From Clostridia bacterium (lineage in GTDB: Bacteria; Bacillota; Clostridia; Christensenellales; Aristaeellaceae): a stretch of 38,675 nucleotides of DNA. The notes beneath the pieces are model-generated. The model saw only the letters and a program-made list of their open reading frames with translations. It made no database searches and was not told the DNA's origin. Location: contig JAFRLY010000040.1 of the NCBI GenBank assembly GCA_017431005.1, positions 1-38,675 on the forward strand, written 5' to 3'. Position numbers and translations under genes: made by a program. Positions 6,805-32,998 of the stretch are shown piece by piece; the stretch's first letter is position 1, and each line of letters starts with the position of its first letter.

Positions 6805-6815
6805 TCATTCACCTC

Positions 6816-7238: not shown

Positions 7239-7282
7239 AATGAATCAACCTCTCCTCATCGTTGCCTGTTACATATTAAAAT

Positions 7283-7312
7283 ATTATATACGAAAAAGGC
7301 TGAAAAAAACAA
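7283..7312 (-). promoter_or_regulatory. Promoter of the NHLP export operon
   Basis: On the minus strand, TTGTTT (7312-7307), 18 bp and TATAAT (7288-7283), about 45 bp ahead of the first start codon. The rest of the 7239-7423 gap shows no small open frame resembling a leader peptide. Confidence 0.65.
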
Positions 7313-7423
7313 TGTCGCACAGCACAATAACGGCCGGGACTGTAGCAAGCGGAAAAACCTCATCCGGTACTGTCCGGGATCCTTCAGGCCGGACTCATGT
7401 GTCCTGACGCTGTATCCCGTGAA

Positions 7424-7759: not shown

Positions 7760-7839
7760 AGGAACCTCCCGGATCAGGCACTGAGGCTGTCCGTCTGTTA
7801 TGCAGATGAAAGCCTTTCCTGGATTTCTTTGTGATCTTT

Positions 7840-7868
7840 ATTATACATGCCTGCCTCCCCGTTGTATA
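7840..7868 (-). promoter_or_regulatory. Promoter of the DUF2200 gene
   Basis: On the minus strand, TATACA (7868-7863), 17 bp and TATAAT (7845-7840). The -10 is perfect and the -35 matches 4 of 6 bases. It is back to back with the GH27 promoter. Confidence 0.55.
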
Positions 7869-7925
7869 CAAGCAGGTTTCAAAAGTTTTCCGCACCTGAA
7901 GCCGTATCCGGCCGGATACTTCGGG

Positions 7926-7954
7926 TTGTGTTTGGATGCCTGCTTTGATATAAT
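7926..7954 (+). promoter_or_regulatory. Extended -10 promoter of the GH27 operon
   Basis: TGaTATAAT, with TG at 7946-7947 and TATAAT at 7949-7954. The -35 candidate TTGTGT (7926-7931) lies 17 bp upstream but is weak. The core TTTGATATAAT is identical to that of the SGNH hydrolase promoter. Confidence 0.6.
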
Positions 7955-7989
7955 AATAAATTGATTTCTTGATTCTGGGAGGCACCTGT

Positions 7990-9237: not shown

Positions 9238-10787
9238 AAGAAGGATTCCCTTTGAGAAAGAAAATCTGTCTGCTTCTGGGGCTGCTGGCCTTCTGCCTTC
9301 TGAGCTCCGCGGCTCTCGGCGAAGCTCTGGTCACCTGGACGCCCGAGTCTCCCAGGATAGGGGATTATGTGGATGTTGTTGTGCGGCCGGAGCGGGAAAA
9401 CCCTCAAAGTGTCACCTACCGGCTGACATTGGGCGACCAGAAGGTTTTCTCCGGCAAGGAGGATGATCATTATGAGGTTTCCTTCCGTCCGCGGAAGGAA
9501 GGAACCTATACACTGACCGTCGTCCTCAGCTACGGTAAAAAGGACCAGGAGGAAATTCAGGTTCCCATCCGGGTCTCCGGTACGGCTCCGGAGCAGGCCG
9601 GGACGAACATGGTATACAGCCAGAAGGACGGCTGGTGGAAAAAGAAGAGCTACGGCAGCAACAATCTGGAGGTTGCAGGCTGCGGCATCTTTACCCTGAG
9701 CCATGCCGTACAGCGTCTCGGTTTCACCGGAGAGGATGTCCTGCCGGAAAACCTGGGAAAAACCTACGCATTTTGCCTGGTGGAAGGCGGAACCGCCAAT
9801 GAGCGGCTGCTGACCAACGCCGGAAACGTGTACGATTTTATAACCCAGGATGAGCTGGAGGAATCCGCGGCAGGTATTTCTGCCTGTCTCCGCCGGGGAG
9901 ATTTCTTCAGCTTCAGCATTGTCAACGGACATATTGCCCTGGCGGACGGCATCAGCGGGGACGGCACGAAGGTGCATATTGTTGATTCCGCTCCCAGCGC
10001 AACCTTTGAAAGGATAAAGAAAGGAAGCATCTACCTGCAGGCGGAAGACGGCTCCTTCCGGACCATCAAGAGCCCTGCGGAGCTGCCCGGCGCCCGGTAT
10101 TTCTTTGAAACACGGTTCTACGGCGGCGGCGAATACTGGCTGGATCTGGATTACTGCGCCCGCCGCGGCATGCGGCTGATCCGCTCCTCCTGGCTGAAGC
10201 TGAACGCTGAAGGAGGCGCCAGAAGCGTAACCCTGTCGCAGATCGGAACGATGCAGAGCAAAGTCATTCTGGATGAGGAGACCCTTACTGTCAGTACCCG
10301 GGATCTGGTCTGGAACTGCGTCGGGGCGGAGGAAGCCCAAGTCGCGGTTGTAACCTCAAAATCCGGCGTAACCTTTAAGGACGCAGCCGGAAAGGCAATC
10401 CCGAATTACAAAAAGATTGCCCGGGGCACACTGCTGATGCCCCTGGAAATCGGCAGGGATACCGTATATGTCTTTTACAAAGGCTCCTTTGGCTATGTAA
10501 GCCGGAAAGCCGTGGAGTTCCTCAGTGTTGTGCAGGATGACTTCCCCGCCGGTGTACTGACCTATCACGGCAGAGCGTCCGGCACCGTCATGATTAATGT
10601 GAGAAATGATGCCAAAGGAAAAGCAAAGCTCGGGGAGCTGAAGGTCGGAACGCCTGTTGCTGTGGCGGAGCAGAAGGAAGAGTACAGCCTGATCGAAGGC
10701 AAAGGGCTCCGCGGCTGGGTTCAGAATCAGTATCTTACAATAGAAGGGAAGGAAGACAATGGGCAGGAAATCGACGAAGGCCAATAA
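9234..10787 (+). CDS. Secreted C39-like cysteine protease-fold protein with SH3-like C-terminus
   Basis: A 517-residue exported protein. A basic start and hydrophobic core (LLLGLLAFCLLSSAALG) form a signal peptide. An Ig/PKD-like beta region (about 30-120) follows. Then comes a papain-like C39-type domain with candidate catalytic Cys150 in AGCGIFTLSHA, His233 in VNGHIAL and Asp251 in HIVDS. A bacterial SH3-like domain with NVR and GWVQNQYL (about 440-505) ends the protein and may bind the cell wall. The real start may be TTG 9252, which gives MRKKICLL and has AGAAGGA 6 bp upstream; the ATG at 9234 has no clear site. The gene overlaps the GH27 stop by ATGA, and its 3' end overlaps the HTH gene by 29 bp. 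Its substrate is unknown. Confidence 0.75.
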   Translation: MKEGFPLRKKICLLLGLLAFCLLSSAALGEALVTWTPESPRIGDYVDVVVRPERENPQSVTYRLTLGDQKVFSGKEDDHYEVSFRPRKEGTYTLTVVLSYGKKDQEEIQVPIRVSGTAPEQAGTNMVYSQKDGWWKKKSYGSNNLEVAGCGIFTLSHAVQRLGFTGEDVLPENLGKTYAFCLVEGGTANERLLTNAGNVYDFITQDELEESAAGISACLRRGDFFSFSIVNGHIALADGISGDGTKVHIVDSAPSATFERIKKGSIYLQAEDGSFRTIKSPAELPGARYFFETRFYGGGEYWLDLDYCARRGMRLIRSSWLKLNAEGGARSVTLSQIGTMQSKVILDEETLTVSTRDLVWNCVGAEEAQVAVVTSKSGVTFKDAAGKAIPNYKKIARGTLLMPLEIGRDTVYVFYKGSFGYVSRKAVEFLSVVQDDFPAGVLTYHGRASGTVMINVRNDAKGKAKLGELKVGTPVAVAEQKEEYSLIEGKGLRGWVQNQYLTIEGKEDNGQEIDEGQ

Positions 10788-11354: not shown

Positions 11355-13439
11355 TTATTCTTCCTTGGCAGCTTCTTCAGCCGCTTCGGCAGCTTCTTCC
11401 TTGGCTTCCTCAGCCGCTTCCTTTACTTCCTCCACGGCTTCGATGGCTTCGGCAACCTGTTCGGCCGCTGTTTCATCGGTGGCGACGATTTCATACTCAG
11501 CTTCGGGGGCAGCTTCCGCTTCCGGAGCGGGATTTTCGTCTTCCAGAGCCTGGCGGATGCTCAGGCTGATGCGCTTCTTCTCCGGATCAACGCCCAGAAC
11601 CTTCACGCGGACAACCTGACCAACCTGGACAGCATCCTCAACCTTTGCCACGCGGGTCTGCGCGCACTGGCTGATATGAACCAGACCGTCCAGACCGGGC
11701 TCCAGTTCCACGAAAGCACCGAAATCAGTGATGCGGACAACCTTGCCCTCAACGATCTCGCCTTCAGGATACTTCTCAGCAGCGTTATCCCACGGATGCG
11801 GCTGCAGCTGCTTGTAACCCAGCTGAATCCGTTCCCGTTCGGGATCCAGGGACAGAACCTTTACGTCCACTTCCTGGTTGGGCTTGACCACTTCGCTCGG
11901 ATGCTTGATTCTGCCCCAGCTCAGGTCGGTGATATGAATCAGGCCGTCCACACCGCCCAGATCCACAAAAGCGCCGAAGTCCGTCAGCCGGCGGACGATG
12001 CCGTGAATGACAACGCCTTCTTCCAGCTTTTCCCAGACTTCCTTCTTCTTGGCTGCAGCTTCCTCGGCAACGACCGCCTTGCGGCTGGCAACGATACGTT
12101 TCTTCTGCTTGTCAACTTCAATGATCTTCAGCTTCATGTCCTTGCCCACGAAGTCAGCGATCTTTTCCACATAGCGCTGGCTCAGCTGGCTGGCAGGCAC
12201 GAAAGCGCGCACGCCGCCGACATCGGCGATCAGGCCGCCCTTGACAGCTTCCTTGCCGATACCGTCAACATACTCATTGGCGTCATACTTCTCCATCAGA
12301 GCGTCCCACGCCTTGCGGTTTACGATGTTGCGCTGGCTCAGCAGCACATTGCCTTCCCCATCGTTCACCTTGACGACTTCAACCTCAATTTCGTCGTCCA
12401 GCTTCACGTCCTGATCCACAAGATCGGAACGCTTGATCAATCCGTCCGCTTTGTAACCGATGCTGACGCAAACCTCATCATCCGTGATCTGCACAACCTT
12501 TCCGGTCAGGGTCTGCCCGGGACGGATCCGTACCAGCGTCGCGTCGACTTCCGCCATGAAGTCATTGTGGTTTTCCTCTTCAGGGGTAGGGGTCAGGTCT
12601 TTGTTCTCCAGTTCGCTCATGCGTGTGACAACCTCCTTAAGTGAATCCGCCGGCGTTGAGGCCCCGGCGGTGATTCCAATCATTTCGGAATCTATATTTG
12701 CAAAGGCGGGCGGTATTTCCGCCGCACACTCTACCAGAATGGTCCGGGGGCATTGGTTTTTGCAAACCTCATAAAGTTTACGGGTGTTCGCGCTGGTTCT
12801 TCCTCCCACCACGATCATCGCGTCAGCCCGGGCAGCCAGTTCCCTGCTCTCCTTCTGACGGATTTCCGTTGCGGAGCAGATGGTGCAGTGGCTGTCCAGC
12901 TCTTTGACCTTCTGCCGGAGCACCTCCAGCACCGCTTCCCAGCACGCGGGCTGAAAAGTGGTTTGCGTGACAGCGATGGCGCGCTCCATCCCGGGCAGGG
13001 CGGCTGCTTCCTCCGGCGTGGCAACAACCCATACCGGTCCGGATGCCCACCCGGCTGTTCCCTTTACCTCCGGGTGTTCCGCTTCTCCCACCAGAATCGT
13101 CGGTGTCCCGTCCGCAGAGCCGTCCGCCACGATTCTGTGCAGTCTTTCCACGAAAGGACAGGTCAGATCCACAACGGGATTTCCCTGTTCCTTCAGACGT
13201 TCAAGCACCTCCGGCGCCACGCCGTGGCTGCGGATCAGAACCTGACGGTTCCCTGCGTCCTCCGGCCTGCGGATGGATGTCAGTCCATGCTCCTCCAGGC
13301 TGCGGACAACATCGGGATTGTGGATCAGCTCCCCCAGCGTGCAGGAAGGCTTTCCCTCCGCAGCGATCCGGACGGCCATTTCCACAGCCCGCCGGACACC
13401 CATGCAGAAACCTGCGTGAGCAGCTGTCTCAATCGGCAT
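11355..13439 (-). CDS. ispH-rpsA: IspH - ribosomal protein S1 fusion
   Basis: A 694-residue two-part protein. Residues 1-280 are 4-hydroxy-3-methylbut-2-enyl diphosphate reductase, the last step of the MEP isoprenoid pathway. The three iron-sulfur ligands are Cys12 (GFCMGV), Cys94 (LTCPFV) and Cys188 (TICSAT), with active-site His40, His72 and His122. About 300-640 holds four S1 RNA-binding repeats; the last two are the best conserved (DFGAFVDLGGVDGLIHI and DFGAFVELEPGLDGLVHI). The final 60 residues are a very acidic Ala/Glu tail. This fusion is known in Clostridia, and whether the S1 half works on ribosomes is unsettled. AAGGAG precedes the ATG. The 115-bp AT-rich gap upstream has possible -10 boxes (TATATT) but no clear promoter, so co-transcription with cmk-plsC is also possible. 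Confidence 0.95.
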   Translation of the reverse strand: MPIETAAHAGFCMGVRRAVEMAVRIAAEGKPSCTLGELIHNPDVVRSLEEHGLTSIRRPEDAGNRQVLIRSHGVAPEVLERLKEQGNPVVDLTCPFVERLHRIVADGSADGTPTILVGEAEHPEVKGTAGWASGPVWVVATPEEAAALPGMERAIAVTQTTFQPACWEAVLEVLRQKVKELDSHCTICSATEIRQKESRELAARADAMIVVGGRTSANTRKLYEVCKNQCPRTILVECAAEIPPAFANIDSEMIGITAGASTPADSLKEVVTRMSELENKDLTPTPEEENHNDFMAEVDATLVRIRPGQTLTGKVVQITDDEVCVSIGYKADGLIKRSDLVDQDVKLDDEIEVEVVKVNDGEGNVLLSQRNIVNRKAWDALMEKYDANEYVDGIGKEAVKGGLIADVGGVRAFVPASQLSQRYVEKIADFVGKDMKLKIIEVDKQKKRIVASRKAVVAEEAAAKKKEVWEKLEEGVVIHGIVRRLTDFGAFVDLGGVDGLIHITDLSWGRIKHPSEVVKPNQEVDVKVLSLDPERERIQLGYKQLQPHPWDNAAEKYPEGEIVEGKVVRITDFGAFVELEPGLDGLVHISQCAQTRVAKVEDAVQVGQVVRVKVLGVDPEKKRISLSIRQALEDENPAPEAEAAPEAEYEIVATDETAAEQVAEAIEAVEEVKEAAEEAKEEAAEAAEEAAKEE

Positions 13440-13554: not shown

Positions 13555-14193
13555 TTATTTTTTCTTTTTGGACGCCTGAACCTCCCGGATCATGCTTCTG
13601 TAGGTCTCCCGCATCCGGTCGTTCATTTTCTCACAGGTTTCCGTGTTGATTCCCTCTTCCAGCAGATCCTCGTAGGGAATCGGCTCTCCGACGTAAATGT
13701 CTGTCACGCGGAACCACCTCAGCGGCTTCTCGATATACATGGGAATCACCGGCGCCTTGCCTCTCAGTGCAATCAGCGATGTTCCGTTTTCAATCTGCTC
13801 CATCTGGCCCTCATGATGGCGGGTTCCCTCCGGGAAAATCACCAGTGTCTTTTTCAGACGGATCGCCTTCATGCATGCCCGCATCGCTTCCATGTCCGTA
13901 TTGTGCCGGTCCACCAGAATGCAGTGCAGCCTGGTCAGAATCTTCCTGAAAAATCTGTTCTTTCCAAGCTCCTTTTTCCCCAGGAAAACAACCTGCTGTT
14001 TTTTGACCGCCAAGGCCATAACCACCGGATCGAGCGCGTGCTGATGGTTGGCGATCAGGAGCATCGGCGGTTCCCGGTCCAGCCGCTCCGTGTGATGGAA
14101 CCGGACCGGCATCAGGGTATGGAACACAATACCGGCAAGGATCCTGACAACTTCGTACAGCCGGTTGTCTTTTTCGGTCACAGGCTCACTCAT
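13555..14193 (-). CDS. plsC: 1-acylglycerol-3-phosphate acyltransferase
   Basis: A 212-residue PlsC-family enzyme that acylates lysophosphatidate to make phosphatidate at the membrane. It has the catalytic H-x4-D motif NHQHALD (His50, Asp55) and the substrate-binding FPEGTR (120-125). A hydrophobic segment near 14-30 may anchor it. The end is a Lys-rich tail. The open frame continues upstream, but ATG 14193 has GGAGGCG 7 bp before it and overlaps the end of cmk by 8 bp, so coupling is likely. The order cmk, plsC, ispH-rpsA is a familiar clostridial arrangement. Confidence 0.9.
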   Translation of the reverse strand: MSEPVTEKDNRLYEVVRILAGIVFHTLMPVRFHHTERLDREPPMLLIANHQHALDPVVMALAVKKQQVVFLGKKELGKNRFFRKILTRLHCILVDRHNTDMEAMRACMKAIRLKKTLVIFPEGTRHHEGQMEQIENGTSLIALRGKAPVIPMYIEKPLRWFRVTDIYVGEPIPYEDLLEEGINTETCEKMNDRMRETYRSMIREVQASKKKK

Positions 14194-14869
14194 GCGTTTT
14201 CGCCTCCACAATTGCCAGAATCCGATCCACCGTCTCATCAAATGTCAGCCCGGATGAATCCACCAGCACCGCGTCCTCCGCCTGCCGAAGCGGTTCCACC
14301 GCGCGGTTCATGTCCTGCTCGTCCCGGCGGATCACGTCCTCCAGTACCTTTTCGTAGGACTCATTCATGCCCTTTTCCTGCATTTCCAGCCAGCGCCTTC
14401 TGGCCCTGACCTCCGGGGATGCTGTCAGATAAATCTTCGCGGTGGCGTTCGGCAGCACTGTCGTGCAGATATCCCGTCCGTCCAGCAGCATATCCGTTTC
14501 CGCCGCCAGCCGCTGCTGCTGCCGTACCATGGCTCTCCGGACCTCCGCGTAGCGGCTCACCGTAGAAGCGGCCATGCTGACCTCCGGTGTCCGGATCTTC
14601 CCGGTAACGTCCTCCCCTTCGGCAAACGTGTGCTGGCCGTCCGCCTGATGGCTGACATCCAGCCGGATCCGTCCGCACAGCGCAACAACCGCGGCCTCAT
14701 CCTGCACATCTATATTTTCCTGAAGGGCAGTGTATCCCAGCGCGCGGTACATGGCTCCGGTATCCAGGTGCAGAATGCCGAGCCGCTTGGCCGCCGCGTC
14801 CGCCACGCTGGACTTGCCCGCGCCGACGGGACCGTCAATTGCCACATTCAGCCGTTTTTTGTTTTCCAT
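14186..14869 (-). CDS. cmk: Cytidylate kinase
   Basis: A 227-residue CMP/dCMP kinase that makes CDP for nucleic acid and phospholipid synthesis. It has the P-loop GPVGAGKSS (13-21), HLDTGAMYRALG, the CMP-binding GRDICTTV and the lid region KIYLTASPEVRARRR. Length is normal for the family. The reading frame remains open well upstream, but ATG 14869 is the only start with a site (GGAGGG) and lies downstream of a good promoter. It overlaps the plsC start by 8 bp. Confidence 0.95.
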   Translation of the reverse strand: MENKKRLNVAIDGPVGAGKSSVADAAAKRLGILHLDTGAMYRALGYTALQENIDVQDEAAVVALCGRIRLDVSHQADGQHTFAEGEDVTGKIRTPEVSMAASTVSRYAEVRRAMVRQQQRLAAETDMLLDGRDICTTVLPNATAKIYLTASPEVRARRRWLEMQEKGMNESYEKVLEDVIRRDEQDMNRAVEPLRQAEDAVLVDSSGLTFDETVDRILAIVEAKTHE

Positions 14870-14902
14870 AGTCTTTTCCCTCCGCGATGTAAGGATGCTG
14901 CT

Positions 14903-14931
14903 ATTATACACAAAAGGCTGTTGCCGATCAA
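14903..14931 (-). promoter_or_regulatory. Promoter of the cmk-plsC operon
   Basis: On the minus strand, TTGATC (14931-14926), 17 bp and TATAAT (14908-14903), about 34 bp before the cmk start codon. Confidence 0.7.
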
Positions 14932-14970
14932 TGCTTCGCCGCGTCCGGCAGCCGCCGCGCCGATTTTTCC

Positions 14971-14999
14971 TTGAAAGATGCCCGCCGGAGCGATATAAT
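14971..14999 (+). promoter_or_regulatory. Promoter of the yfbR-like / LCP operon
   Basis: TTGAAA (14971-14976), 17 bp and TATAAT (14994-14999). It is divergent from the cmk promoter, 39 bp away. Confidence 0.75.
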
Positions 15000-15037
15000 A
15001 AATTGTTATCCGGTCCGGAAGGATCCCAGGAGGTTTT

Positions 15038-15637
15038 ATGTCTTATCCGTTTTTTGCTTATCTTTCCCGGCTGAAGCTGATATCCCGCTGGTCCCTGATG
15101 CGGAATACCCAGCCGGAAAATGATGCTGAGCACAGTCTGCAGGTCGCCATGATCGCCCATGCCATCGCCGTTATCGGAAGGGATCGGTATCATCGGGACA
15201 CCGATCCGGAGCATGTGCTGGCTCTGGCCGTCTATCATGATGCCACGGAGGTCATGACGGGGGATCTGCCGACGCCTGTCAAGTATCACAGCGATGAGCT
15301 CCGCGGCGCCTACCACCGGCTTGAGGATCTGTCCGCGGACAGGCTGCTGGCGCTGCTTCCGCCGGATATGCGCGCACCGTTCTCCCCTTATCTCAAGCAG
15401 GCCCCCGGCTATGACCGGGAAATTGTCAAGGCCGCTGACCGCATCTCCGCCTATATCAAGTGCATGGAGGAAAAGCGCGCCGGCAACCGGGAATTTGATT
15501 ATGCCGCGGAGAATATTCATAAAAGCCTTGAATCCATTGCCTGGCCAGAGGTGCGTGATTTCCTGCTGGAATTCCTGCCTGCCTTCGATATGACGCTGGA
15601 TGAGCTGAATCACCCGATCGCGAATCAGGAGTCCTGA
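15038..15637 (+). CDS. yfbR: YfbR-like 5'-deoxynucleotidase (HD domain)
   Basis: A 199-residue HD-domain phosphohydrolase that removes phosphate from deoxynucleoside 5'-monophosphates. It is clearly like E. coli YfbR along its length: FFAYLSRLKLISRW, SLMRNTQPEN, AEHSLQVAMIAHA and YHDATEVMTGDLPTPVKY. Metal and catalytic residues are His32, His67, Asp68 and Asp134, with Arg17 in the RW pair. AGGAGG precedes the start. The LCP gene follows after 32 bp without a promoter of its own, so they form an operon. Confidence 0.92.
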   Translation: MSYPFFAYLSRLKLISRWSLMRNTQPENDAEHSLQVAMIAHAIAVIGRDRYHRDTDPEHVLALAVYHDATEVMTGDLPTPVKYHSDELRGAYHRLEDLSADRLLALLPPDMRAPFSPYLKQAPGYDREIVKAADRISAYIKCMEEKRAGNREFDYAAENIHKSLESIAWPEVRDFLLEFLPAFDMTLDELNHPIANQES

Positions 15638-22447: not shown

Positions 22448-23644
22448 TCAGAGCATCCGCATCCTCTTGTCCTTCAGTTTGCCTTCCCTTCCCAGGGCAA
22501 TGAGGCGGGTATATCTTTCCACAGCTTTTTCCATCACTTTGTCCCAGGGCACGGGTATTGTCTCCCGTGCTTTTTTGCCTGTCTCTTTTAATTTCTCCGG
22601 ATCAGCAAGCGCTTCCCGGATCACCCGGGCCAGATCCGCCGGCTGATTTTCGCACAGATATCCGTTTTCACCGTCCCGGATAATCTCCGCGGCCGTACTG
22701 CCGCGTACCATGACCGACGGGGTGCCCATCACAGCCGCTTCCCGGACAACCATCGGAGCAGCGTCGTACATCGAAGGAAACGCAAACAGGGAGGCACGCT
22801 CATACAGTCCGTCCAGCAGCGTGGAGTCTGTGATATGGCCCACGGTCTGGGCCTGATCCTCCAGCCCGAGCTCCTGGATTTTGGCCGTGATGTTCATCAT
22901 GTCCACGCCCTGGCCTGCCAGTATCAGCCGGAACCGCTGTCCCTGGGCCCGCAGACGGGCGCAGGCTTCCAGTATCGTCAGAATGTTCTTTTTCCAGTCC
23001 ATCTGACCCACGAACAGAATCAGCGGATCATCTCCCAGGTTCCATCTGCGGGTTACCTCCGCCACATCCTTCGGAGACGCGGTGCGGAGCGTTGCTCCGT
23101 TGGGCATTACCTGAATTTCCCCTTCAAAGCCGTATTCCCGCAGAACGTCCGCTGTGCTTTTTCCCACAGCCCAGACCTCATCGCAGCGGTTATAGAAATT
23201 AACCACCAGTTTGACCCCGGCCTTGGCGATGGATTCGGACTTCGTTGCCTTCAGAAAATCGTCATAGTATTTCGAATGGAACGTGGCAACCAGCGGCAGC
23301 TTGCGCAGATGCGCCAGCCGCAGCGCTTCGGAACCGGCCATGAAAGGGCTGTGCGCGTGCACGATATCCAGCGGAATCATGCGAATCCGCTGACGGTAAT
23401 GAGCGTCCAGCACCGCCTCGCCGATTTTGTACTGTTTCATGCCCGGAAGGCCTCTGCCCACAAATTCAACCAGCTGAAAAGGGAAGCCTCCCTGATATCC
23501 CGTATCGTACATCGGCGCCACAACCGTGACCTGATGTCCCATCCGGCTCAATGTCTCCGAATAAGCCAGCGCTACCCGGCCCACACCGTCCACGATCGGT
23601 AAAAATGTATCTGTAAACTGTCCTATGTGCATAAATTCATTCAT
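22448..23644 (-). CDS. Family 4 glycosyltransferase
   Basis: A 398-residue GT-B glycosyltransferase of family GT4. The N-terminal acceptor half has GQFTDTFLPIVDGVGR and DIVHAHSPF. The C-terminal donor half has LILFVGQMDWKKN, LILAGQG and the E-x7-E-like YDAAPMVVREAAVMGTPSVM. The architecture resembles diacylglycerol glucosyltransferases and related membrane-lipid glycosyltransferases, but the acceptor is not proven. AAAGGA directly abuts ATG 23644; the Met at residue 5 (23632), 12 bp downstream of that site, may be the real start. A strong promoter lies at 23728-23700. Confidence 0.88.
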   Translation of the reverse strand: MNEFMHIGQFTDTFLPIVDGVGRVALAYSETLSRMGHQVTVVAPMYDTGYQGGFPFQLVEFVGRGLPGMKQYKIGEAVLDAHYRQRIRMIPLDIVHAHSPFMAGSEALRLAHLRKLPLVATFHSKYYDDFLKATKSESIAKAGVKLVVNFYNRCDEVWAVGKSTADVLREYGFEGEIQVMPNGATLRTASPKDVAEVTRRWNLGDDPLILFVGQMDWKKNILTILEACARLRAQGQRFRLILAGQGVDMMNITAKIQELGLEDQAQTVGHITDSTLLDGLYERASLFAFPSMYDAAPMVVREAAVMGTPSVMVRGSTAAEIIRDGENGYLCENQPADLARVIREALADPEKLKETGKKARETIPVPWDKVMEKAVERYTRLIALGREGKLKDKRMRML

Positions 23645-23773: not shown

Positions 23774-23903
23774 TCTCCCTGTTTTGATCAGGCTTCAATA
23801 AAGCTTTCTTCGGCCGCCGCGGCGCAGATCCGGCGTGCAGTCAGCCCGTCCGGTCTGTCTGCGCAGGCAGGCCGTTCATTCCGATACAGCAGGAGAAAAC
23901 AAG

Positions 23904-24728
23904 ATGTCAGTTGATCCTTTGAACAATCATACACCGGATGCCGGAACGCCCATTTCCGGGGAAAGCAGTTTTATGGAACCCCTGCAGCTGGCCGGCCAGA
24001 TCATCATGGAAAACGGCGGCGAAACCTACCGTGCCGAGGAAACCATCTGCCGGATGGGCGAAGGGTTCGGTCTCCGGCAGGTCGAGAGCTTCGCTGTTCC
24101 GAGCGGTCTTTTCATCAGCTACCGGGATCAGCGGGGAAATCTGGAAACCGGGGTTAAAAGAGTGCACCGGCAGGAAACAAACCTGACCCGCGTGGATGAA
24201 GTCAACAGAATTTCCCGTCAGGCTTCTCTCGGTCAGATCGCTCCCGCTGCCGCCGCGGAAAAGCTCAGGCACATTGCGCGGATGCACGGCACCTTTTCCG
24301 GCGCCCTGTCAATCCTCGCGGCCTTCACCTGCGCAGCGGGATTCGCGGTCATTTTCGGCGGTTACCTGTGGGAACTGCTGCTGGGAGGCTTCGTCGCCGC
24401 GCTGGTGCAATGCTTCGCTCTGCTGGCCGGGAAGCTCCGCCTGCACTGGATGGCCGTCAATATTATCGGCGGGCTGCTGACAGCCCTTCTGCCCAATCTG
24501 GCGCATATGATGATTCCGGGCCTGCTTTCCGAGGCTGTCATTGCCGGAGCGCTGATGCCGCTTGTTCCCGGCCTGGCCATGACCAATGCCGTGCAGGATA
24601 CGCTGCGGGGAGATATGGTTTCCGGGCTATCCCACGGTGTCCAGGCGCTGCTGACCGCCTGCCTGATTGCCGGAGGCGCGCTGCTGTCCCCGGCCCTGAT
24701 GAGACTGATTCAGGGAGGTGGATTCTGA
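23904..24728 (+). CDS. ThrE-family threonine/serine exporter, large subunit
   Basis: A 274-residue membrane protein of the ThrE (DUF1212) family. A cytoplasmic N-terminal part (1-125) has QLAGQIIMENGGETYRAEET and SYRDQRGNLETGVKRV. About five transmembrane helices follow, with LMPLVPGLAMTNAVQDTLRGD before the last, the family hallmark. Split ThrE systems need a second small subunit, and the next gene supplies it. The open frame reaches 23835, but ATG 23904 has CAGGAG 9 bp upstream. It is predicted to export small amino acids such as threonine or serine, though the substrate could differ. Confidence 0.9.
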   Translation: MSVDPLNNHTPDAGTPISGESSFMEPLQLAGQIIMENGGETYRAEETICRMGEGFGLRQVESFAVPSGLFISYRDQRGNLETGVKRVHRQETNLTRVDEVNRISRQASLGQIAPAAAAEKLRHIARMHGTFSGALSILAAFTCAAGFAVIFGGYLWELLLGGFVAALVQCFALLAGKLRLHWMAVNIIGGLLTALLPNLAHMMIPGLLSEAVIAGALMPLVPGLAMTNAVQDTLRGDMVSGLSHGVQALLTACLIAGGALLSPALMRLIQGGGF

Positions 24729-25236: not shown

Positions 25237-25265
25237 TAGGCAGAAAAGGGCTTTCATGGTATACT
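25237..25265 (+). promoter_or_regulatory. Promoter of the fused amino-ketone synthase gene
   Basis: TAGGCA (25237-25242), 17 bp and an extended -10 TGgTATACT (TATACT at 25260-25265). Confidence 0.6.
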
Positions 25266-25337
25266 TTTTCTGTTTGGCCTGCGTATTCCGATGTGTCCGA
25301 TTTTTCTTCAGGCCTTGACGGAAGGAGAACCCGCTTC

Positions 25338-28300
25338 ATGAGCAGTTACAATCCGTTGGCTGTCAGTGCCCGGTTAAAGGCAGATCCTTCTCTGCCGACA
25401 CTCTTTGAGATTCTCCGAAGCTATGGGGATATTCCGGCTGCGAGATGGCTCAAGGGCAGTCAGGAATGCTCCCTGACCTTTGCCGAAATGACCCGGCGGG
25501 CGGATGACTACGCTGCCTGCCTCCGTTCCCTTGTCCCCGATCAGGGATGGCTGGCGCTGGCAGTGGATACCTGTGTGGAATGGCCCGGGCTGTTCTGGGG
25601 CATTATCCGTTCCGGCCATCATGTCCTGCTGCTGGACGCCTCCGCTTCCGATGCTGTTCTGCAGGGGCTGCTGGACGAGGCCGGCTGCCGTATGATTATC
25701 ACAAAGAAGCCCCGCGCCCTGTCCGGAAGCTGCCGTCAGATCGATTTCAGGGCCGTTGTGGAGGCGCCGCGCACCATCGGTTACAACCCGGTCTGGGGTG
25801 AATATGTGGCCATGTGCACCAGCGGAACCACGGGCCGCAGCCGTGTCTTTGCCTATTCCGGCAGCGCGCTGTGTCAGCAGGCGCTGAACTCCGCGCAGAT
25901 CTACCAGCAGAACAAGCGGGTCATCGGCGATGAAAACCGCCGTTTCCTGGCTTTCCTTCCCTTCCATCACGTGCTGGGCTTCATGGCGAACGTCATCTGG
26001 GGCGGTGCCATGGGTATGACCAACCTGTTCCTGGCGGACCGTACGCCTGCCACCATTATGGAAACCTGCAGGCATTTCCAGCCTCAGCTGGTGGTCGTGG
26101 TCCCGCTGGTCGGAAACAGTCTGGTCAAGGCGCTGGAGAAAAACCTGAAAAAGGAAAAGCCGGCTAAAAGGTTCCTGTTCCGCGCGCTTATGGAATGCTC
26201 CCTGCTTATGCAGCGGATCGCGCCGGAACCCGCCCTGCGTTTTGCGATGAACCGTATGTTTGCTTCCGTCAACCGGAAACTGCTGGGCACTGAGGTGGAA
26301 AGCATCATCCTCGGCGGGAGCCACACCCCGAAGGAAACGCTCAGAACGCTGAACGCGCTTGGTTATTACACGATTACCGGATACGGCATGACGGAAACCG
26401 CCATCACCGGTTTTGAAACCTCCATGAGTCTGAAGCACCGCCTCAGCGGATCCGTGGGCAAGGCCCTGGATTCGGCGGAGTACCGGGTTGTGCCGGACGG
26501 TGCCGATCCCTCCAGAGGAGAGCTGCAGATCCGCGGAAGCGGCATCCATACCGGCCGGGTCGTCAGCGGGGAAATCCTGCCTCCCGACACGCTGGAAGGC
26601 GGCTGGTATCCTACCGGCGATGTTGTCACTATGGACGGCACCGGCCGGATTTATATCCGCGGACGGCTGAAGGATGTCATTATCAACGAATCCGGTGAAA
26701 ACATCTATCCGGATGATCTGGAGGACGCCTGGTCCGGTCTGCCCGGCGTGGAGCAGTTCACAATTCTGGGTCTGCGCAGAAATAAACGGGACCGGAACGA
26801 GGATGTTGTCCTCCTGCTGAACGTCGGGGATCGTTACGGCAATTCCGATTATCTGAATGATCTGGCCGCCCGTGTGGCCGCCATCAATTCCCGCCAGCCT
26901 CTGGCCTCCCAGCTGAACCGCGCCCTGGTCACGCCGATGACCCTGCCGCTGGTCAGCGGCATCAAGGTGAAGCGTGTTGAGCTGAAGCGCCTGTATTCCG
27001 AGCGCGAGCTGGTTTACCGCGAGCTGGATCTGCATGCGCAGAGCGCCGGAGCGGAGGTTGCTTCCATGCCTCAGGCGCCCAGTCCCGAAGGCGCCCGGGA
27101 GGAAATCCGCCAGAAGGTCCGCGCCCTCTATGCGGAAGCTCTGGATATACCGGAGAACGAAATATCCGATACCGCCAATTTCATTGAGGATCTGCACGGT
27201 GACAGCCTCCAGGTGCTGAGCATGGCCCTGAAGGCGGAGGAAACCTGGGGCATCACAATTCCGGCGGAGGAATACGGGCAGTGCGCCACGGTTCTTGGCA
27301 TGGCCCGCACGGTTGAAAGCCTTCTCGCCGGACCGAAGGAAGATCATCCGAAGGAACGGGTGCCGGTGCTGCCGGTGACCCGCTTTGAGGACAGTCCGGA
27401 ATACCGCGCCTTCCTGCAGCGTCAGGAAGCGCTGATCGGCAAAGGTGACAACCCCTATTTTGTCTGTCATGAGTCTCCCCTGCTGGACACCGGCATTGTG
27501 GACGGCAAGGAAATTCTGGAATTCGGCAGCTATAACTATGTGGGCATGAGCGGCCGGAAGGAAGTTAAGGAAGCCGCGAAAGCCGCCATTGACAAATATG
27601 GCACCAGCGCCAGCGGCAGCCGTCTGCTCGCCGGGGAAAAGGAGATTCACCGGGAGCTGGAACGGGAACTGGCGGACTGGAAGCATACAGAGGATGCCAT
27701 TGTCTGCGTGGGCGGTCATTCCACCAATGTAACCTTCGTCGGAAATTTCTGCGGAAAAAACGACCTGATTCTGTATGACGCCCTGGCGCACAACTCCATA
27801 GAGCAGGGCTGCAGGCTCAGTCAGGCAACCTCCCGGCCCTTCCCCCACAGTGATCCGGCTGCGCTGGAATCCATTCTGAAGAGCCAGCGCGCCTATTATG
27901 AGAAGGTGCTGATTATCATTGAAGGCGCCTACAGCATGGACGGCGATATCGCCCCCGTGCCCGATTTCGTCCGGATCAAGAAGGAATACGGCTGCTTCCT
28001 GATGGTCGATGAAGCCCACAGTGCGTGTGTCATCGGCCGGACCGGCGGCGGCGTGGATGAGTATTTCAACCTGAACGGAGACGATATCGATATCAAGTAC
28101 GGCACCCTTTCCAAGGGGCTGGGAACCTGCGGCGGTTATCTGGCCGGTAAAAAATCCCTGATCGATTATCTGCGCTACAATCTTCCCGGGTTTGTCTTCA
28201 GCGTCGGTATGTCTCCTGCGCTGGCTGCCGGTTCTCTCGCGGCGATCCGGACCCTGCGCGCACATCCTGAGATCATGGAGCACCTCCGTACCGCCATCCG

Positions 28301-28598
28301 CACCTTTGCGGACAGCGCCCGCCGCCGTCACCTGGATATCTGTCTGGCAGGTGAAACAGCTGTCCTGCCTGTTCTGGTCGGAAAGGATGAGGATGCCTGG
28401 CTCCTGTCCAATGAACTGAAAAAGCGGGGGGTCAGTGTTCCCCCCGCCATGTATCCCGCGGTTCCCAAAGGGAAGGCCCGTCTCCGCTTCTGTGTCATCA
28501 GTGAGCACAAACCGGAGCAGATCGAACGGGCGCTCGATATTCTTGAAGCCACAGCCAGGGATTTCGGAATTGCCCTTCCCCGGCGCAATTATGACTGA
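25338..28598 (+). CDS. Fused acyl-AMP ligase / acyl carrier protein / alpha-oxoamine synthase
   Basis: A 1086-residue three-part enzyme. About 1-570 is an adenylate-forming ligase: phosphate-binding CTSGTTGRSR (near 159), GYGMTET (near 346), PTGDVV and IYIRGRLKDVI, with a probable catalytic Lys in SGIKVKR. About 585-660 is an acyl carrier domain with phosphopantetheine Ser near 623 in HGDSLQVL. About 700-1080 is a PLP-dependent alpha-oxoamine synthase: YGTSASGSRLLAGE, GGHSTNVT, LMVDEAHSACVIG and the Schiff-base Lys near 925 in GTLSKGLGT. The expected route is activation of a fatty acid, loading onto the carrier, then decarboxylative condensation with an amino acid to give an alpha-amino ketone, as in the first step of sphingolipid synthesis. 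It is cytoplasmic. ATG 25338 follows AAGGAG at 10 bp; the longer frame crosses the promoter. No ketoreductase or phosphopantetheinyl transferase is nearby. Confidence 0.92.
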   Translation: MSSYNPLAVSARLKADPSLPTLFEILRSYGDIPAARWLKGSQECSLTFAEMTRRADDYAACLRSLVPDQGWLALAVDTCVEWPGLFWGIIRSGHHVLLLDASASDAVLQGLLDEAGCRMIITKKPRALSGSCRQIDFRAVVEAPRTIGYNPVWGEYVAMCTSGTTGRSRVFAYSGSALCQQALNSAQIYQQNKRVIGDENRRFLAFLPFHHVLGFMANVIWGGAMGMTNLFLADRTPATIMETCRHFQPQLVVVVPLVGNSLVKALEKNLKKEKPAKRFLFRALMECSLLMQRIAPEPALRFAMNRMFASVNRKLLGTEVESIILGGSHTPKETLRTLNALGYYTITGYGMTETAITGFETSMSLKHRLSGSVGKALDSAEYRVVPDGADPSRGELQIRGSGIHTGRVVSGEILPPDTLEGGWYPTGDVVTMDGTGRIYIRGRLKDVIINESGENIYPDDLEDAWSGLPGVEQFTILGLRRNKRDRNEDVVLLLNVGDRYGNSDYLNDLAARVAAINSRQPLASQLNRALVTPMTLPLVSGIKVKRVELKRLYSERELVYRELDLHAQSAGAEVASMPQAPSPEGAREEIRQKVRALYAEALDIPENEISDTANFIEDLHGDSLQVLSMALKAEETWGITIPAEEYGQCATVLGMARTVESLLAGPKEDHPKERVPVLPVTRFEDSPEYRAFLQRQEALIGKGDNPYFVCHESPLLDTGIVDGKEILEFGSYNYVGMSGRKEVKEAAKAAIDKYGTSASGSRLLAGEKEIHRELERELADWKHTEDAIVCVGGHSTNVTFVGNFCGKNDLILYDALAHNSIEQGCRLSQATSRPFPHSDPAALESILKSQRAYYEKVLIIIEGAYSMDGDIAPVPDFVRIKKEYGCFLMVDEAHSACVIGRTGGGVDEYFNLNGDDIDIKYGTLSKGLGTCGGYLAGKKSLIDYLRYNLPGFVFSVGMSPALAAGSLAAIRTLRAHPEIMEHLRTAIRTFADSARRRHLDICLAGETAVLPVLVGKDEDAWLLSNELKKRGVSVPPAMYPAVPKGKARLRFCVISEHKPEQIERALDILEATARDFGIALPRRNYD

Positions 28599-28607: not shown

Positions 28608-30506
28608 TCAGTCGGTTCCCCTGCCCTGTTTATCTGAGGCTGCGTTTGCAGCCTCTCTTTTTTGTTTCTCAAGCCAGACCGTCAGAACGGCGACATCCGC
28701 CGGGTTTACGCCCGGAATCCTTCCCGCGGCGCCCAGGGATACAGGCTTCTGCCTCGCCAGCTTCTGCCGGGCTTCCAGCCGCAGATGTTCCATTTCGGTA
28801 TACGGCAGATCCTCCGGCAGTCTGGTTTCCTCCATCTGCCTGGCTTTCCGGATCATCTGCTCCTGTTTTTCCAGATATCCGGCATACTTGATGCTGATCT
28901 CCGCCTGTTCGGCCGCTGCGGCGGAAATCTGCTCCAGCTCCGGATCCAGCCGGCGCAGCCTCTCAATCGTGATTTCAGGGCGGCGCAGCAGCTCCTCCTC
29001 ATTCAGCGATCCGGCCGTCTCCGGCTGACCGGCCTCCCGCAGCCAGGCATTCAGCTTTTCTCCGGGAGCAAAGCGGGTCGTGTGCATCCGCTGAATCCAT
29101 TTTTCCGTTTCTTCCCGTTTCTTCCGGGTGCGCTCCATCCGTTCCCCGCCTGCCAGCCCTGCCCGGTATCCGATTTCTGTCAGCCGCAGATCAGCGTTGT
29201 CCTGCCGGAGCATCAGCCTGTGCTCAGCCCGGGAGGTCATCATGCGGTAGGGCTCATCCGTCCCCTTGGTTGTCAGGTCGTCTGTCAGCACGCCCAGATA
29301 CGCCATATTCCGGGTCAGGATGACAGGAGTCTTCCCCTGCAGCGCAAGGCTGGCATTCATGCCGGCCAGCAGCCCCTGGGCTGCCGCCTCCTCATATCCG
29401 CTGGTCCCGTTGATCTGTCCCGCGAAATACAGCCCTTTTATCCGGAGGCTTTCCAGCGTGGGCCTGAGTTCCCGGCTGTCAATGCAGTCATACTCAATCG
29501 CGTATCCCAGCCGGGTAAATTCGCATCGTCTCAGCCCGGGAATCGTCCGGTACATTGCCCACTGTACATCCTCAGGCATGGAGGTGGACATTCCCTGCAC
29601 ATACCATTCAAGGCTTTCCCGTCCCTCCGGCTCGATGAATATCTGATGCCGGTCCTTGTCTGCAAACCGGACGACCTTGTCCTCAATGCTCGGACAGTAT
29701 CTGGGACCGATCCCGTGTATTTTCCCGCTGTACAGCGGTGCTCTGTCCAGATTGTCCAGAATGATGCGGTGTGTTTCCGGTGTTGTCCAGGTCAGCCAGC
29801 AACTGTAGGTGTTCTTCAGTTCTCTGTCCGTCAGGAAGGAGAAAGGAACCACAGGCTCGTCGCCCTTCTGTTCCGTCATCTCGTCAAAGTCAATGCTTCT
29901 CTGGTCCACCCGTGCGGGTGTTCCTGTCTTGAAGCGCCGGAGCTCAAACCCAAGCTCTCTGAGGCTTCCGGACAGGACGTTTGCTCCCAGCAGTCCCTGC
30001 GGTCCTCCGTCATGCCGGTGTTCCCCGATAATGATGCTTCCCTTCAGGTAGACACCGGTCGCCGCGATCACCGCGCTGCAGGGAATCCTGGCGCCTGTCG
30101 TGGTTGTGACACCGGTCACCCGGCCGTTCTCCGTTTCAATGGAGGCTGCCTCTCCCTGCCGCAGTGTCAGTCCTGGCTGCGTCATCAGCGCTTTCCGCAT
30201 CCGGTTCTGGTAGGCCTGCTTGTCCGCCTGCGCCCGCAGCGCGTGCACCGCCGGTCCTTTTCCCATGTTCAGCATTCTGCTCTGCAGGAAGGTGTCGTCG
30301 ATGGCCAGGCCCATCTCGCCTCCCAGCGCGTCCAGCTCCCGTACCAGGTGCCCTTTGGCCGATCCGCCGATAACCGGGTTGCAGGCCATCAGCGCGACCC
30401 CGTCCATATTCAGTGTCAGCAGAAGGGTGTCCATACCCATCCTTGCTGCGGCCAGCGCTGCTTCACATCCCGCATGCCCGGCGCCGATCACCACCACGTC
30501 TGCCAT
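28608..30506 (-). CDS. mnmG: tRNA uridine 5-carboxymethylaminomethyl modification enzyme MnmG
   Basis: A 632-residue FAD-dependent enzyme that, with MnmE, modifies the wobble uridine of several tRNAs. It has the FAD-binding [47 protein letters not shown], the folate/NADH-region [14 protein letters not shown] and [21 protein letters not shown]. The conserved end ([15 protein letters not shown]) is followed by about 17 residues of poorly conserved tail that overlaps the antisense terminator of the neighbouring gene. It lies 35 bp behind the Ig-repeat gene, so it may be transcribed with it; an AGGGAG site precedes the ATG. Confidence 0.96.
28636..28664 (+). terminator. Intrinsic terminator of the fused synthase gene, antisense within mnmG
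   Basis: An 8-bp perfect stem, GAGGCTGC / GCAGCCTC, with a GTTT loop, is followed by TCTTTTTTG. It starts 38 bp after the synthase stop and lies inside the last codons of convergent mnmG. A separate inverted repeat, GACTGA-N9-TCAGTC (28593-28613), holds both TGA stop codons. Confidence 0.75.
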
Positions 30507-30541
30507 CTGTTCAGCTCCCTCGTTTCTTTTCCTCTCCGCCG

Positions 30542-32587
30542 TTAATTTCCGTTTGTGTTGAACGGCAGATTACTGGTCCAGTACAGCATCGGCTGATCGT
30601 TCACGTCATTGATGTTGCGCCTGTAACCTTCGTTGTCCAGCCATCCGGTAATATGCACCAGCACGGTTCCGAGCGGCTGGGTAATCTGCATGTTTCCGTA
30701 GCTTGTCCGCTCAGGGTTGGTCCTTTCCTTCGGATAGAAGGTATGGGCATAAACACCGTCAAAGCTTGTGCTCACCCCGTCGGTGTTGCAGACCATCGGA
30801 TTCCCCGCCTGATCGAAGCACTCCACGTGGAAGAACACCTTTTCCATGATGATGTCGCTGATATTGCGCATCGTCACCCAGATCTTGTTGTTCGCCACCC
30901 ATACCTCATCCATGATGACTGCTCCGTTGAAATCAGCCACCCGGATTTCGGCGGACGCGGTGAAGCCCCCGTCCTCCGTCACGCCGGTCACGGTCGTTAC
31001 GCCCTCCCGCAGTCCGCGGACGTTGCCGTAATTCTTGCTGGGCCGTACGGTGGCAATCGATTCATCCTCAATATACCAGCTCATGTTGTAATTGTTCGCG
31101 TTGGACGGACTGATCAGCGCCTTGACGCCCAGCACCCGGTCCAGCTGAACATGATAGATGGGATACTGAATGCTGACACCTTCCACAGGCTGGGTTACCC
31201 TTACCCGGATCGTCGTCTTCTTTTTGGATCCGTCTGTCGCACTCACGGTAATGTTGGCGTCTCCCTTGCTCAGGCCTGTCACCAGACCGTTCTGGTCCAC
31301 GGAAGCCACCTTGGGACGGGAGCTGGAGAAGGTAACGTCCTTGATGCTGGCATCCTCCGGATAGACCGTCCAGCCCAGCTGCAGGGTCGTATTGATCGGG
31401 AACGGATCCGGTTTCTCAGGGGTGATCTCGATCTTGGTGACCTGCTGAATCACGCTCACATGAGCGACCGCCGTCAGTTCGGGATTGGAATTGCTGACAC
31501 AGGTAATGTCGCACTCGCCGGCCTTCACGCCGGTTACGACGCCCTTGCTGACCGTCGCGATACTCTCGTCGGATGTGAACCAGCCCACAGTTTTGTCATC
31601 CGTGTTGGAAGGGCCGATCTGAGGCGTCAGCGTCACCCGCCTCCCGGTCACAACCTGAACGTCGGTGTTCTTCAGTGTCAGTGTCTGCGCCGGCTGGGTG
31701 ACCGTCAGGTAGAAGGACGCGCTCCTGCCGGATCCGTCCGCCGCTTTCGCGTCGATATAGACGTTGCCGCGGCCGACGCCGGTAACGACGCCGTTTTCGT
31801 CCACCGTCGCGACCTTCGTGTTCCTTGATTTCCATTCCACCTGCTGGATCGTTGCGTTGGCAGGCGTATAGTTCACCTGCAGCGCCATGGTTGACCCGGC
31901 AGACAGCTTTTTGCTGTCCGCTGTGATCTCCAGCTTTGTGATCGGCTGTGTTACCAGAACGCAGAAGGTTTCCGTAACCTCCGGATTCTGCTTGCTCGCA
32001 ACCACCAGCTCACAGGTTCCGGCCTGTATTCCCCGCATGGTGCGCTCGGTGATCTTGGCGATCCCGATGTCGCTGGATGTATAGGTAATATTGCGGTTGC
32101 TGGCGTTTTCCGGTGTGCACACCGCGCTGAGGGTAACGCTTTTCCCCGCGGGCAGCACAATCACCGGCCAGCCGGGATCTTCCTTCAGCAAAGGCGTAAT
32201 CTCCGGATCGTCCGGCTCATAGATTGTCAGTCCCTTGGTGCTCAGTGTGACGTCCGTTACCGCCCGGAGGACATTGACATACATCATCGCCCGCCAGCTT
32301 TTCTTTCCGTTCTTCAGCGTCGCGGAAATCTGTGCCTGGCCCTTCTGAAGAGCCGTAATGGTTCCGTCCTCCGCCACTGTGAAAATCTTCTCTGCGCCGG
32401 ATTTGAAGGTCAGCTCTCCGTCCTCAGCCGGCAGTCCCTCACGTTTCAGCTCGGGCTTCAGCGTTTCTCCTTCAAACAGCGTGACGCTTTTTTCCGAAAA
32501 TGCGAATGTATCCGCTGCGGCAGCTGCGGCAGCCATCAGAAGCGTCACGATCAGGGCCAGCGTTACCCATCCTTTGATTCTGTGCAT
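30542..32587 (-). CDS. Secreted protein with bacterial Ig-like (Big_2) repeats
   Basis: A 681-residue exported protein. A signal peptide (1-25, [18 protein letters not shown]) is followed by at least five Ig-like group 2 repeats, recognisable by recurring units such as [51 protein letters not shown] and [20 protein letters not shown] distinct C-terminal domain of about 120 residues with several aromatic residues and no known motif ends the protein. There is no LPxTG anchor or transmembrane tail, so the attachment route is unknown. Such proteins usually act in adhesion or as surface scaffolds. ATG 32587 follows GGGGGAGAG; the longer frame lacks a signal-peptide start. mnmG follows closely. Confidence 0.85.
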
Positions 32588-32666
32588 GCTCTCTCCCCCC
32601 GTCTTTCTTCCGTATCTGTTTTCACTCAAATGAACGGTATGAACGTGCTTCAGCATCCCGTTATGT

Positions 32667-32698
32667 AAAAAAGAACGGCGCCGAGCATCACGGCGCCG
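32667..32698 (-). terminator. Intrinsic terminator of ireB
   Basis: Read on the minus strand, CGGCGCCG, a 7-base loop and CGGCGCCG, followed by TTCTTTTTT. It starts 14 bp after the ireB stop and separates ireB from the Ig-repeat gene. Confidence 0.85.
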
Positions 32699-32711
32699 CG
32701 AATACAGCCGG

Positions 32712-32966
32712 TTAATGGTTCTCCAGATAGGATCGGACCAGCTCTTCCAGAATTTCGTCCCGCTCCAGCCTGCAGATCAGGCTGCGGGCCGAATTATAAC
32801 TGGTGATATAGGTCGGATCACCGGAAATAATGTAGCCGACAAGCTGTGTGATGGGATCGTAGCCTTTCGCCTGAAGGGCTTTGTAAACATAGAGCAGAAT
32901 ATCCTGCGCCTCGTTTCCGCTTTCCGCTATCGGGTTCAATTTCATCGTATTGAATTGCTCTTCCAT
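32712..32966 (-). CDS. ireB: IreB family regulatory phosphoprotein (UPF0297)
   Basis: An 84-residue cytoplasmic protein matching the IreB/UPF0297 family: [49 protein letters not shown] contains the hallmark blocks GYxPxxQxVGYxxSGDPxYITS and RxERDExLEELV. In enterococci IreB is phosphorylated on N-terminal Thr residues by the PASTA kinase IreK and limits cephalosporin resistance; here Thr7 is the candidate. ATG 32966 follows AGGGGTG. A GTG further up (32984) is not credible. In many Clostridia ireB sits with ruvX; here it stands alone behind the G3E GTPase pair. Confidence 0.93.
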
Positions 32967-32998
32967 AGCGTTCACCCCTCTCACAGCCTGTTTGATTG

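Follow-up and report, generated by a model that had tools for sequence, protein, structure and literature searches.

The window analysed here, the whole stretch of DNA under study, comprises positions 1 to 38,675 (forward strand) of contig JAFRLY010000040.1 from the Clostridia bacterium assembly GCA_017431005.1, and the subject of this report is one of its genes, which encodes an adenylate-forming ligase, an acyl carrier protein (ACP) domain and an alpha-oxoamine synthase (AOS) on a single chain. The gene is one open frame on the forward strand, from ATG 25338 to TGA 28598, encoding 1086 residues with no internal stop. The longest open reading frame has an alternative start, TTG 25140, but we consider 25338 the better start because alignments begin at residue 1-3 in 19 of the 20 full-length matches from the genus (the window's own protein included); GGAAGGAG lies upstream of this ATG at 25320-25327. 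The initial annotation had read ligase, carrier serine and pyridoxal phosphate (PLP) lysine motifs in this order in one unbroken frame, and the Pfam domains together with Ser623 and Lys926 bear this out. The features are as follows (SPT, serine palmitoyltransferase):

25338..28598, forward strand: ligase-ACP-AOS gene, 1086 residues (frame, Pfam domains, genus alignments for the start, upstream GGAAGGAG)
25419..26549, forward strand: AMP-binding ligase core, residues 28-404 (Pfam PF00501, 1.6e-35)
27111..27311, forward strand: carrier (PP-binding) domain, residues 592-658 (Pfam PF00550, 9.9e-10)
27204..27206, forward strand: predicted phosphopantetheine attachment residue Ser623, within GDSL (Ser in 54 of 54 fused frames)
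27405..28577, forward strand: AOS domain, residues 690-1080, with a Pfam core at 725-1068 (PF00155 Aminotran_1_2, 8.5e-45; PDB relative; tree)
27531..27533, forward strand: Tyr732, which is Asn in the SPT, BioF, Kbl and ALAS rows (SmSPT Asn52) (alignment, tree rows)
28113..28115, forward strand: PLP-binding Lys926, within GTLSKGLG (motif, residue conservation)

The three Pfam families, together with the PDB relatives of the AOS domain (SPT, Kbl, ALAS and BioF), agree with the domain identities and the AOS reaction class predicted initially. The ligase part is taken to extend to about residue 560, with Lys543 at 26964-26966. Residues were checked at 61 loci, 54 of which gave a fused frame of at least 900 residues containing DEAHS; the seven outside this set are six split or solo loci and locus L240, a counter-example removed by the DEAHS filter, which favours active AOS domains. 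Invariant in all 54 fused frames are T161, S162, G163, T165, T352, E353, D428, R443, K445 and K543 of the ligase, S623 of the carrier, and H818, D891, H894, T923, K926 and R1050 of the AOS, while residue 164 is Thr except for Ser in two frames and residue 761 is Ser except for Ala in two. The His, Asp, His, Lys and Arg set expected of a fold-type I PLP active site (H818, D891, H894, K926 and R1050) is present. The three-domain enzyme is therefore conserved and apparently active, and its assignment to the class of carrier-fed AOS is well supported, with the exact product a prediction.

The fusion recurs well beyond the window. A contig scan of genomes, queried with short peptides of the window protein so that fusions in remote phyla were possibly missed, returned 66 loci: 35 with all three domains essentially full length, two further fused loci cut by contig ends (L016 and L045), five with carrier and AOS without the ligase as judged by the aligned stretch (L039, L040 and L042-L044), one with the AOS alone (L038), and 23 low-identity matches (L047-L069). 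The window's genus has the complete fusion in 20 of 25 genomes and the AOS alone in three (G013, G017 and G018); the other two genomes, both incomplete, gave no match at E <= 1e-50. An even draw of 296 genomes from the order, in which the two best candidates per genome were scored, yielded the full-length fusion in 21, from families f1, f19 and f103, and among 391 genomes of the class, also drawn evenly and searched at E <= 1e-120, the full fusion was found in the window's own genome only. The three-domain order, which the initial annotation had proposed to seek across Clostridia, thus recurs, and because it is common to 35 contig-scan loci, 20 genus genomes and 21 order genomes, chance and misassembly are excluded and the 1086-residue frame is confirmed as genuine. 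The carriers' records are metagenome-assembled genomes or uncultured Clostridia, Clostridiales, Lachnospiraceae, Oscillospiraceae, Eubacterium, Christensenellaceae and Bacillota, and many of them name ruminant gut compartments. Peptide patterns of the window protein were without match in the viral collection, and the matches listed from the openly licensed PMC literature include none in which the title or the opening of the abstract deals with a ligase-ACP-AOS protein of one chain.

Two groups of look-alikes were set aside. Seven of the low-identity loci L047-L069 were viewed by eye and have the look of ligase-ACP-acyltransferases, a different architecture, with a reductase in front in six (L066 is cut by its contig); this group was not counted. 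Ligase-only or ligase-ACP proteins of other Clostridia (L110-L116) come from seven genomes, all without the full fusion, one of which (G401) has an additional separate AOS at 33%.

The synthase was placed by family models and by a tree. All of the best 25 of 85 NCBIfam models scored below their own cut-offs for the window protein; the best for the C-terminal part was bioF, with 339 bits against a cut-off of 426 (343 bits in a whole-genome search), other AOS models came next, and the SPT equivalog models gave 295 bits against 640, 275 against 500 and 221 against 670. The nearest solved structure by sequence is the S. multivorum SPT 3a2b, followed by a thermophilic AOS and Kbl. The window genome (G000, 85% complete) contains one strong AOS match, to which the bioF model adds two weak ones. 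It is very improbable that the protein is a BioF- or Kbl-type housekeeping synthase fused by chance to a ligase and a carrier: bioF is the best single model, but its score lies under the cut-off, bioB is without match in the genome, the tree sets the domain apart from E. coli BioF, Alicyclobacillus BioF and E. coli Kbl (some branches being long), and the motif has Tyr instead of Asn. We rejected this identity on the tree position, the bioF score and the lack of a bioB match, so the finding by which the initial annotation would have had its proposal fall, a BioF beside biotin genes, was not made. Another comparison is the BioWF fusion, in which a ligase joined to an AOS likewise makes amino ketones, starting from free acids and amino acids, but which is a di-domain protein of the biotin pathway that uses a CoA thioester and has no carrier domain (PMC9544090). 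The window protein has a PF00501 ligase and a PP-binding domain, in contrast to a BioW-AOS protein without a carrier.

The AOS tree contained 45 rows, with variants of 39 rows and of 49 rows (L226, L236, L239 and L240 added) that kept the same grouping. Twenty rows from Clostridia or other Bacillota form one clade (100/100), nested in a 29-row clade (100/99) with nine other AOS, from Planktothrix, Streptomyces, Pseudomonas, Paraburkholderia, Caballeronia, Sinorhizobium, Shinella, Acidisoma and genome G404 of the window's class. In eight of the nine, a type I polyketide synthase (PKS) shares the chain or the gene cluster with the AOS, which for the Sinorhizobium row (L148) was judged from S. 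meliloti L218, its counterpart at 99% identity; for the Acidisoma AOS the stretch fetched held no annotated PKS and did hold a short-chain dehydrogenase/reductase (SDR). All five partner PKS scanned (L109, L147, L214, L217 and L218) have a carrier domain. Position 732 is Tyr in 29 of 29 clade rows and Asn in 16 of 16 others, so that the window AOS has both the clade membership and the Tyr of PKS-linked AOS, in a tree without PfSgaB and RkpG themselves. The S. multivorum and Parabacteroides SPT form a separate 8-row clade (100/99) with six stand-alone AOS of the window's order; the window AOS falls outside it, in a tree without Rhodobacterial SPT. BioF, Kbl and ALAS rows are placed elsewhere than the window AOS, several reference rows being long-branched and the deeper joins unsure. 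The placement with SPT, BioF and PKS-terminal synthases that had been proposed at the outset therefore puts the domain outside the SPT clade sampled and nearest to AOS that are mostly PKS-linked. If the protein acts as predicted, SPT-like function would, on this tree, have a second line next to that of the PKS-linked enzymes.

The PKS-linked relatives supply the closest models. SgaAB of Pseudomonas fluorescens MYb115 is a PKS with an AOS of SPT activity and makes sphinganines (PMC12134224). It resembles the window protein in that an AOS is paired with a chain-supplying protein and in that a homologue of a 3-ketodihydrosphingosine (KDS) reductase is proposed to act next (PMC12134224); it differs in that an iterative PKS builds the chain, whereas the window protein would activate a ready-made acid, with ligase, carrier and AOS on one chain. 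Another Pseudomonas PKS-AOS pair, L214, has a layout similar to SgaAB, lies in the larger clade of the window AOS and has the same Tyr. The PKS proteins of Planktothrix (L147) and Streptomyces (L217), of the same larger clade, are alike in carrying the carrier and then the AOS on one chain, and differ in having a KS-AT-based PKS in front of them instead of a ligase. In the window a ligase and a carrier stand in the same chain as the AOS, and the window proteins scanned, a part of the frames, include no PKS that would supply the acyl chain. As to the individual loci, L109 of G404 has at 980-10550 a type I PKS with KS, AT, DH, zinc-ADH, KR and PP-binding domains (Pfam) adjoining the AOS and a flavin amine oxidase gene in front, and resembles a PKS-AOS pair of SgaAB layout. 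The carrier-AOS C-terminal ends belong to PKS proteins at 5386-10206 of L217, from a Streptomyces anthocyanicus plasmid, where Pfam at E <= 1e-6 gives KS, AT, carrier and AOS only, and at 2584-10182 of L147, from a Planktothrix plasmid.

Capsule clusters form a further group of relatives, with the PKS loci of S. meliloti (L218), Paraburkholderia (L215) and Caballeronia (L216) sharing the AOS clade and the Tyr motif. We take these to be rkp/wcb clusters, names that come from PMC3908369 and general background and not from the sequence records. They differ from the window in the presence of a PKS, in polysaccharide genes nearby and in their Gram-negative hosts; the S. meliloti cluster is alike also in having an SDR next to the AOS, and the S. 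meliloti and Shinella SDRs gave no KdsR match. In rkp/wcb-type capsule clusters the base serves as a lipid anchor. It is quite unlikely, in our view, that the predicted base is such an anchor of a surface polysaccharide and not a membrane sphingolipid. Capsule, polysaccharide-export or LTA-synthase-family genes do surround six of the seven AOS relatives fetched from Proteobacteria and Streptomyces, the seventh, that of Streptomyces, having an LCP-family gene alone next to the AOS, and the window itself contains a GT4 glycosyltransferase gene (Pfam) at 22448-23644; but the clustered Clostridia neighbours, most of them unannotated, share no GT4 gene with the window.

A candidate for the step after the AOS came from neighbour clustering, in which an SDR gene adjoins the AOS gene in distant relatives. 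An SDR is the immediate same-strand neighbour at 16 of 30 loci taken as lying outside the genus: 10 of 15 from the contig scan (L029, L032 and L034-L046, placed outside by identity, L038 being unsure) and 6 of 15 from the order draw (L226-L240, out of 16 non-genus full-length loci; the omitted one, in G648, shares its contig place with L034's genome G436). Some of these loci are related by descent, and the contigs include short ones. On the longest frames the gap between AOS and SDR ranges from -68 to +38 nucleotides and is -4 in 7 of the 16, with the SDR start overlapping the AOS stop in five of these seven (L036, L041 and L042-L044). An SDR ortholog is present elsewhere in all 25 genus genomes, at 61-80% identity outside the window's own. 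As in 3-ketosphinganine reductases, the SDR motifs are present (GxxxGxG and YxxxK in all six SDRs checked), and the model for KdsR, a 3-ketodihydrosphingosine reductase (NF049977), is the best NCBIfam model for all four SDRs of the AOS-linked Clostridia group scored, and it is on top for the SDR of the window genome (G000:C53:139516-140349), which reached 227 bits, under the cut-off of 400. Among seven control SDRs scored against NCBIfam, KdsR was not among the matches listed (at most 25) for three further SDRs of the window genome (its fourth further SDR match, L091, lies outside the controls), for one SDR of G018 and for the second SDR of L043. From Bacteroides a 3-ketosphinganine reductase, BT_0972, is described (PMC9278070).

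Further observations concern the surroundings of the SDR genes. Within the genus, the next gene after the SDR belongs to one family in 10 of the 11 loci where the clustering found the SDR (14 loci were given); its member in the window genome is a NAGPA-domain protein (L103, 11517-13321), and the relatives of L103 with this family are L201-L204, L206-L208, L211 and L212. Among six stand-alone AOS of the SPT clade from the same order, three (L158, L161 and L162, in G027, G033 and G034) lie directly beside an SDR whose best NCBIfam model is KdsR, and the contig of L160 ends soon after its AOS. Against the Bacteroidota SPT model, whose cut-off is 640 bits, the AOS of L158 scored 561 bits and that of L161 526. 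Two AOS types, each beside KdsR-like SDRs, therefore occur in the window's order, and with L158, L161 and L162 relatives of the window's organism may have a further gene pair for a sphingoid base, one of more classical appearance. A protein with a ferredoxin-like C-terminus adjoins the AOS or SDR gene in L029 (7937-9016) and L034 (13232-14347), with Npun_F2552 as its best, sub-threshold NCBIfam model.

Adenylate-forming enzymes activate acids as acyl-AMP and can transfer the acyl group to a carrier, and AOS form a PLP aldimine with an amino acid, which is condensed with an acyl thioester with loss of CO2. Applied to the window protein, the N-terminal ligase would convert a free fatty acid with ATP to acyl-AMP and the acyl group would pass to the phosphopantetheine arm on Ser623 of the protein's own carrier. 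The amino acid bound as an aldimine by the PLP synthase would be a small one of the L form, with serine the likeliest, and would attack the carrier-bound acyl thioester, CO2 being lost and an alpha-amino ketone released; with serine and a long chain this ketone would be 3-ketosphinganine-like. A separate SDR, encoded beside the gene in many relatives and elsewhere in the window genome, would then reduce the ketone to an amino alcohol, a sphinganine-like base. We hold it to be probable that the protein works in this way, as a one-chain entry point to a sphingoid-like base, followed by separate SDR reduction. The domains, the intact catalytic residues, the clade and the association with a reductase can be read from the sequences, and from them we infer each chemical step, the chain length, the amino acid, the use of the carrier in cis and the final lipid.

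Several observations weigh against this proposal. In SmSPT, Asn52 contacts the hydroxyl group of serine via water (PMC10196870); the window protein has Tyr732 at this position, and the specificity may differ. Ser761 is shared with one of the two ALAS rows and so does not discriminate between serine and glycine. One of the 21 order fusions, L240 (genome G637, 4041-7235), still has an open fused frame, in which, as judged by eye, the PLP Lys and the first active-site His are gone; with a very long AOS branch of 3.79 in the 49-row tree, it looks like a synthase domain gone non-catalytic behind a ligase and a carrier. Ligase-less forms exist (five carrier-AOS loci and four AOS-only genes), and when their nine genomes, mostly drafts, were searched with the whole protein, seven gave no ligase match at E <= 1e-15; the L038 genome gave two matches, one to ligase-ACP at 29% and another that is shorter, and the L044 genome a partial ligase match at 29%. 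The ligase thus seems dispensable in some lineages, where the acyl group must come from another source. In the window's genus no SDR neighbour was found, either by clustering or in the five genus loci of the neighbour count. The KdsR scores of the four AOS-linked SDRs, 201-237 bits, are about half the curated cut-off of 400, and two SDRs of the order without an adjoining AOS (L163 and L164) also have KdsR on top. Because of these two we rejected the KdsR label as proof of SDR function; it is suggestive for the AOS-linked SDRs, and gene order is the stronger evidence.

Two alternatives turn on these points. The same chemistry with alanine or glycine would give a 1-deoxy-type base, a free amino ketone or a pyrazine-type signal, which we judge unlikely. 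Tyr732 in place of the Asn that reaches the serine hydroxyl through water speaks for it, as do the Ala at residue 761 in two of 54 fused frames and the acceptance of Ala, Gly and homoserine by SmSPT (PMC10196870); against it, PKS-linked AOS of the same clade share the Tyr, the neighbouring SDR points to a product that is reduced, and PKS-paired PfSgaB, an enzyme outside the rows of our tree, has an almost exclusive preference for serine (PMC12134224). Because of this preference of PfSgaB serine is probably the partner, by analogy to an enzyme outside the tree, and Tyr732 departs from SPT. The persistence of AOS-only and carrier-AOS members without a ligase, together with the use of acyl-CoAs by PfSgaB in vitro (PMC12134224), would also fit an AOS that is loaded from free acyl-CoA or a housekeeping ACP, with the fused ligase-ACP serving mainly fatty-acid scavenging and the fusion not channelling. 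We regard this as a minor possibility, since the carrier Ser and the ligase residues are kept in all 54 fused frames, across several genera and families.

The single-chain route to a sphingoid-like base thus leaves the initial interpretation of the protein partly supported. The sphingoid-like base itself, a predicted product, gains weight from the SDR neighbour; the synthase lies outside the SPT clade sampled. The view that the protein does alone the job of three holds at most for the first step, as a separate reductase is implied; the ligase part is absent in some lineages. The three are the Caulobacter-type CC_1165, CC_1163 and CC_1162, an acyl-CoA/ACP synthetase, an ACP and an SPT, which are separate proteins in Rhodobacteria (PMC9386255). 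They have the same three functions as the window protein but differ in being three proteins, with an SPT subgroup absent from our tree, and the window AOS lies outside the Bacteroidota-type SPT clade. According to PMC10191378, sphingolipid synthesis among bacteria is for the most part confined to Bacteroidota and some alpha-Proteobacteria, and a Gram-positive potential in smaller groups has been allowed for (PMC11087976). We tentatively suggest, as a possibility, that gut Clostridia make sphinganine-type lipids by a PKS-type offloading AOS recoupled to a fatty-acid ligase and a carrier, which would convert free fatty acids from diet or host to 3-ketosphinganine-like bases for a dedicated SDR, with an origin separate from classical SPT. 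If true, gut Clostridia would be a further source of sphingoid bases, and the ligase-ACP-AOS gene, the SDR and the SYNY motif would provide a genetic marker for tests by lipidomics and metagenomics. The opening step of sphingolipid-like lipids, elsewhere on separate proteins, is here apparently on one chain, and a protein acting as predicted would be a compact catalyst that turns a free fatty acid into an amino ketone.

Around the gene, scans for promoters and terminators gave:

25237..25265, forward strand: TAGGCA-17-TATACT, promoter-like, the second hexamer preceded by TG; no more than chance would give
28636..28655, forward strand: terminator-like hairpin with a T run; it lies within the mnmG frame, which is convergent, at its 3' end (terminator scan)

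The initial annotation had credited the gene with its own promoter and terminator, which was not confirmed: promoter-like sites numbered 2 against 1.7 (sd 1.4) in shuffles and terminator-like sites 7 against 4.7 (sd 2.4), and we rejected both features as evidence, being at chance level or ambiguous. Its statement that no PKS or nonribosomal peptide synthetase (NRPS) genes are near stands for the window proteins scanned, a part of the frames, where the sole match to such families was sub-threshold TIGR01733 (68 of 317 bits) to the protein's own ligase. A ThrE-type exporter gene upstream (23835-24728) is suggestive of serine and was left unused, as it is not common to any other clustered locus; the 173-residue frame after it has no Pfam match. 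Downstream, 28608-32984 holds mnmG, a gene whose protein carries six Big_2 Ig-like stretches, and a 90-residue frame; the families of these three occur in 19, 20 and 20 of the clustered loci, respectively. Elsewhere the window contains a tandem pair of ABC transporter genes, one with a peptidase C39 domain (2416-6804), LytB (IspH) fused to S1 domains (11355-13439), and a 475-residue frame (14186-15613) in which the CMP kinase match is limited to residues 255-467.

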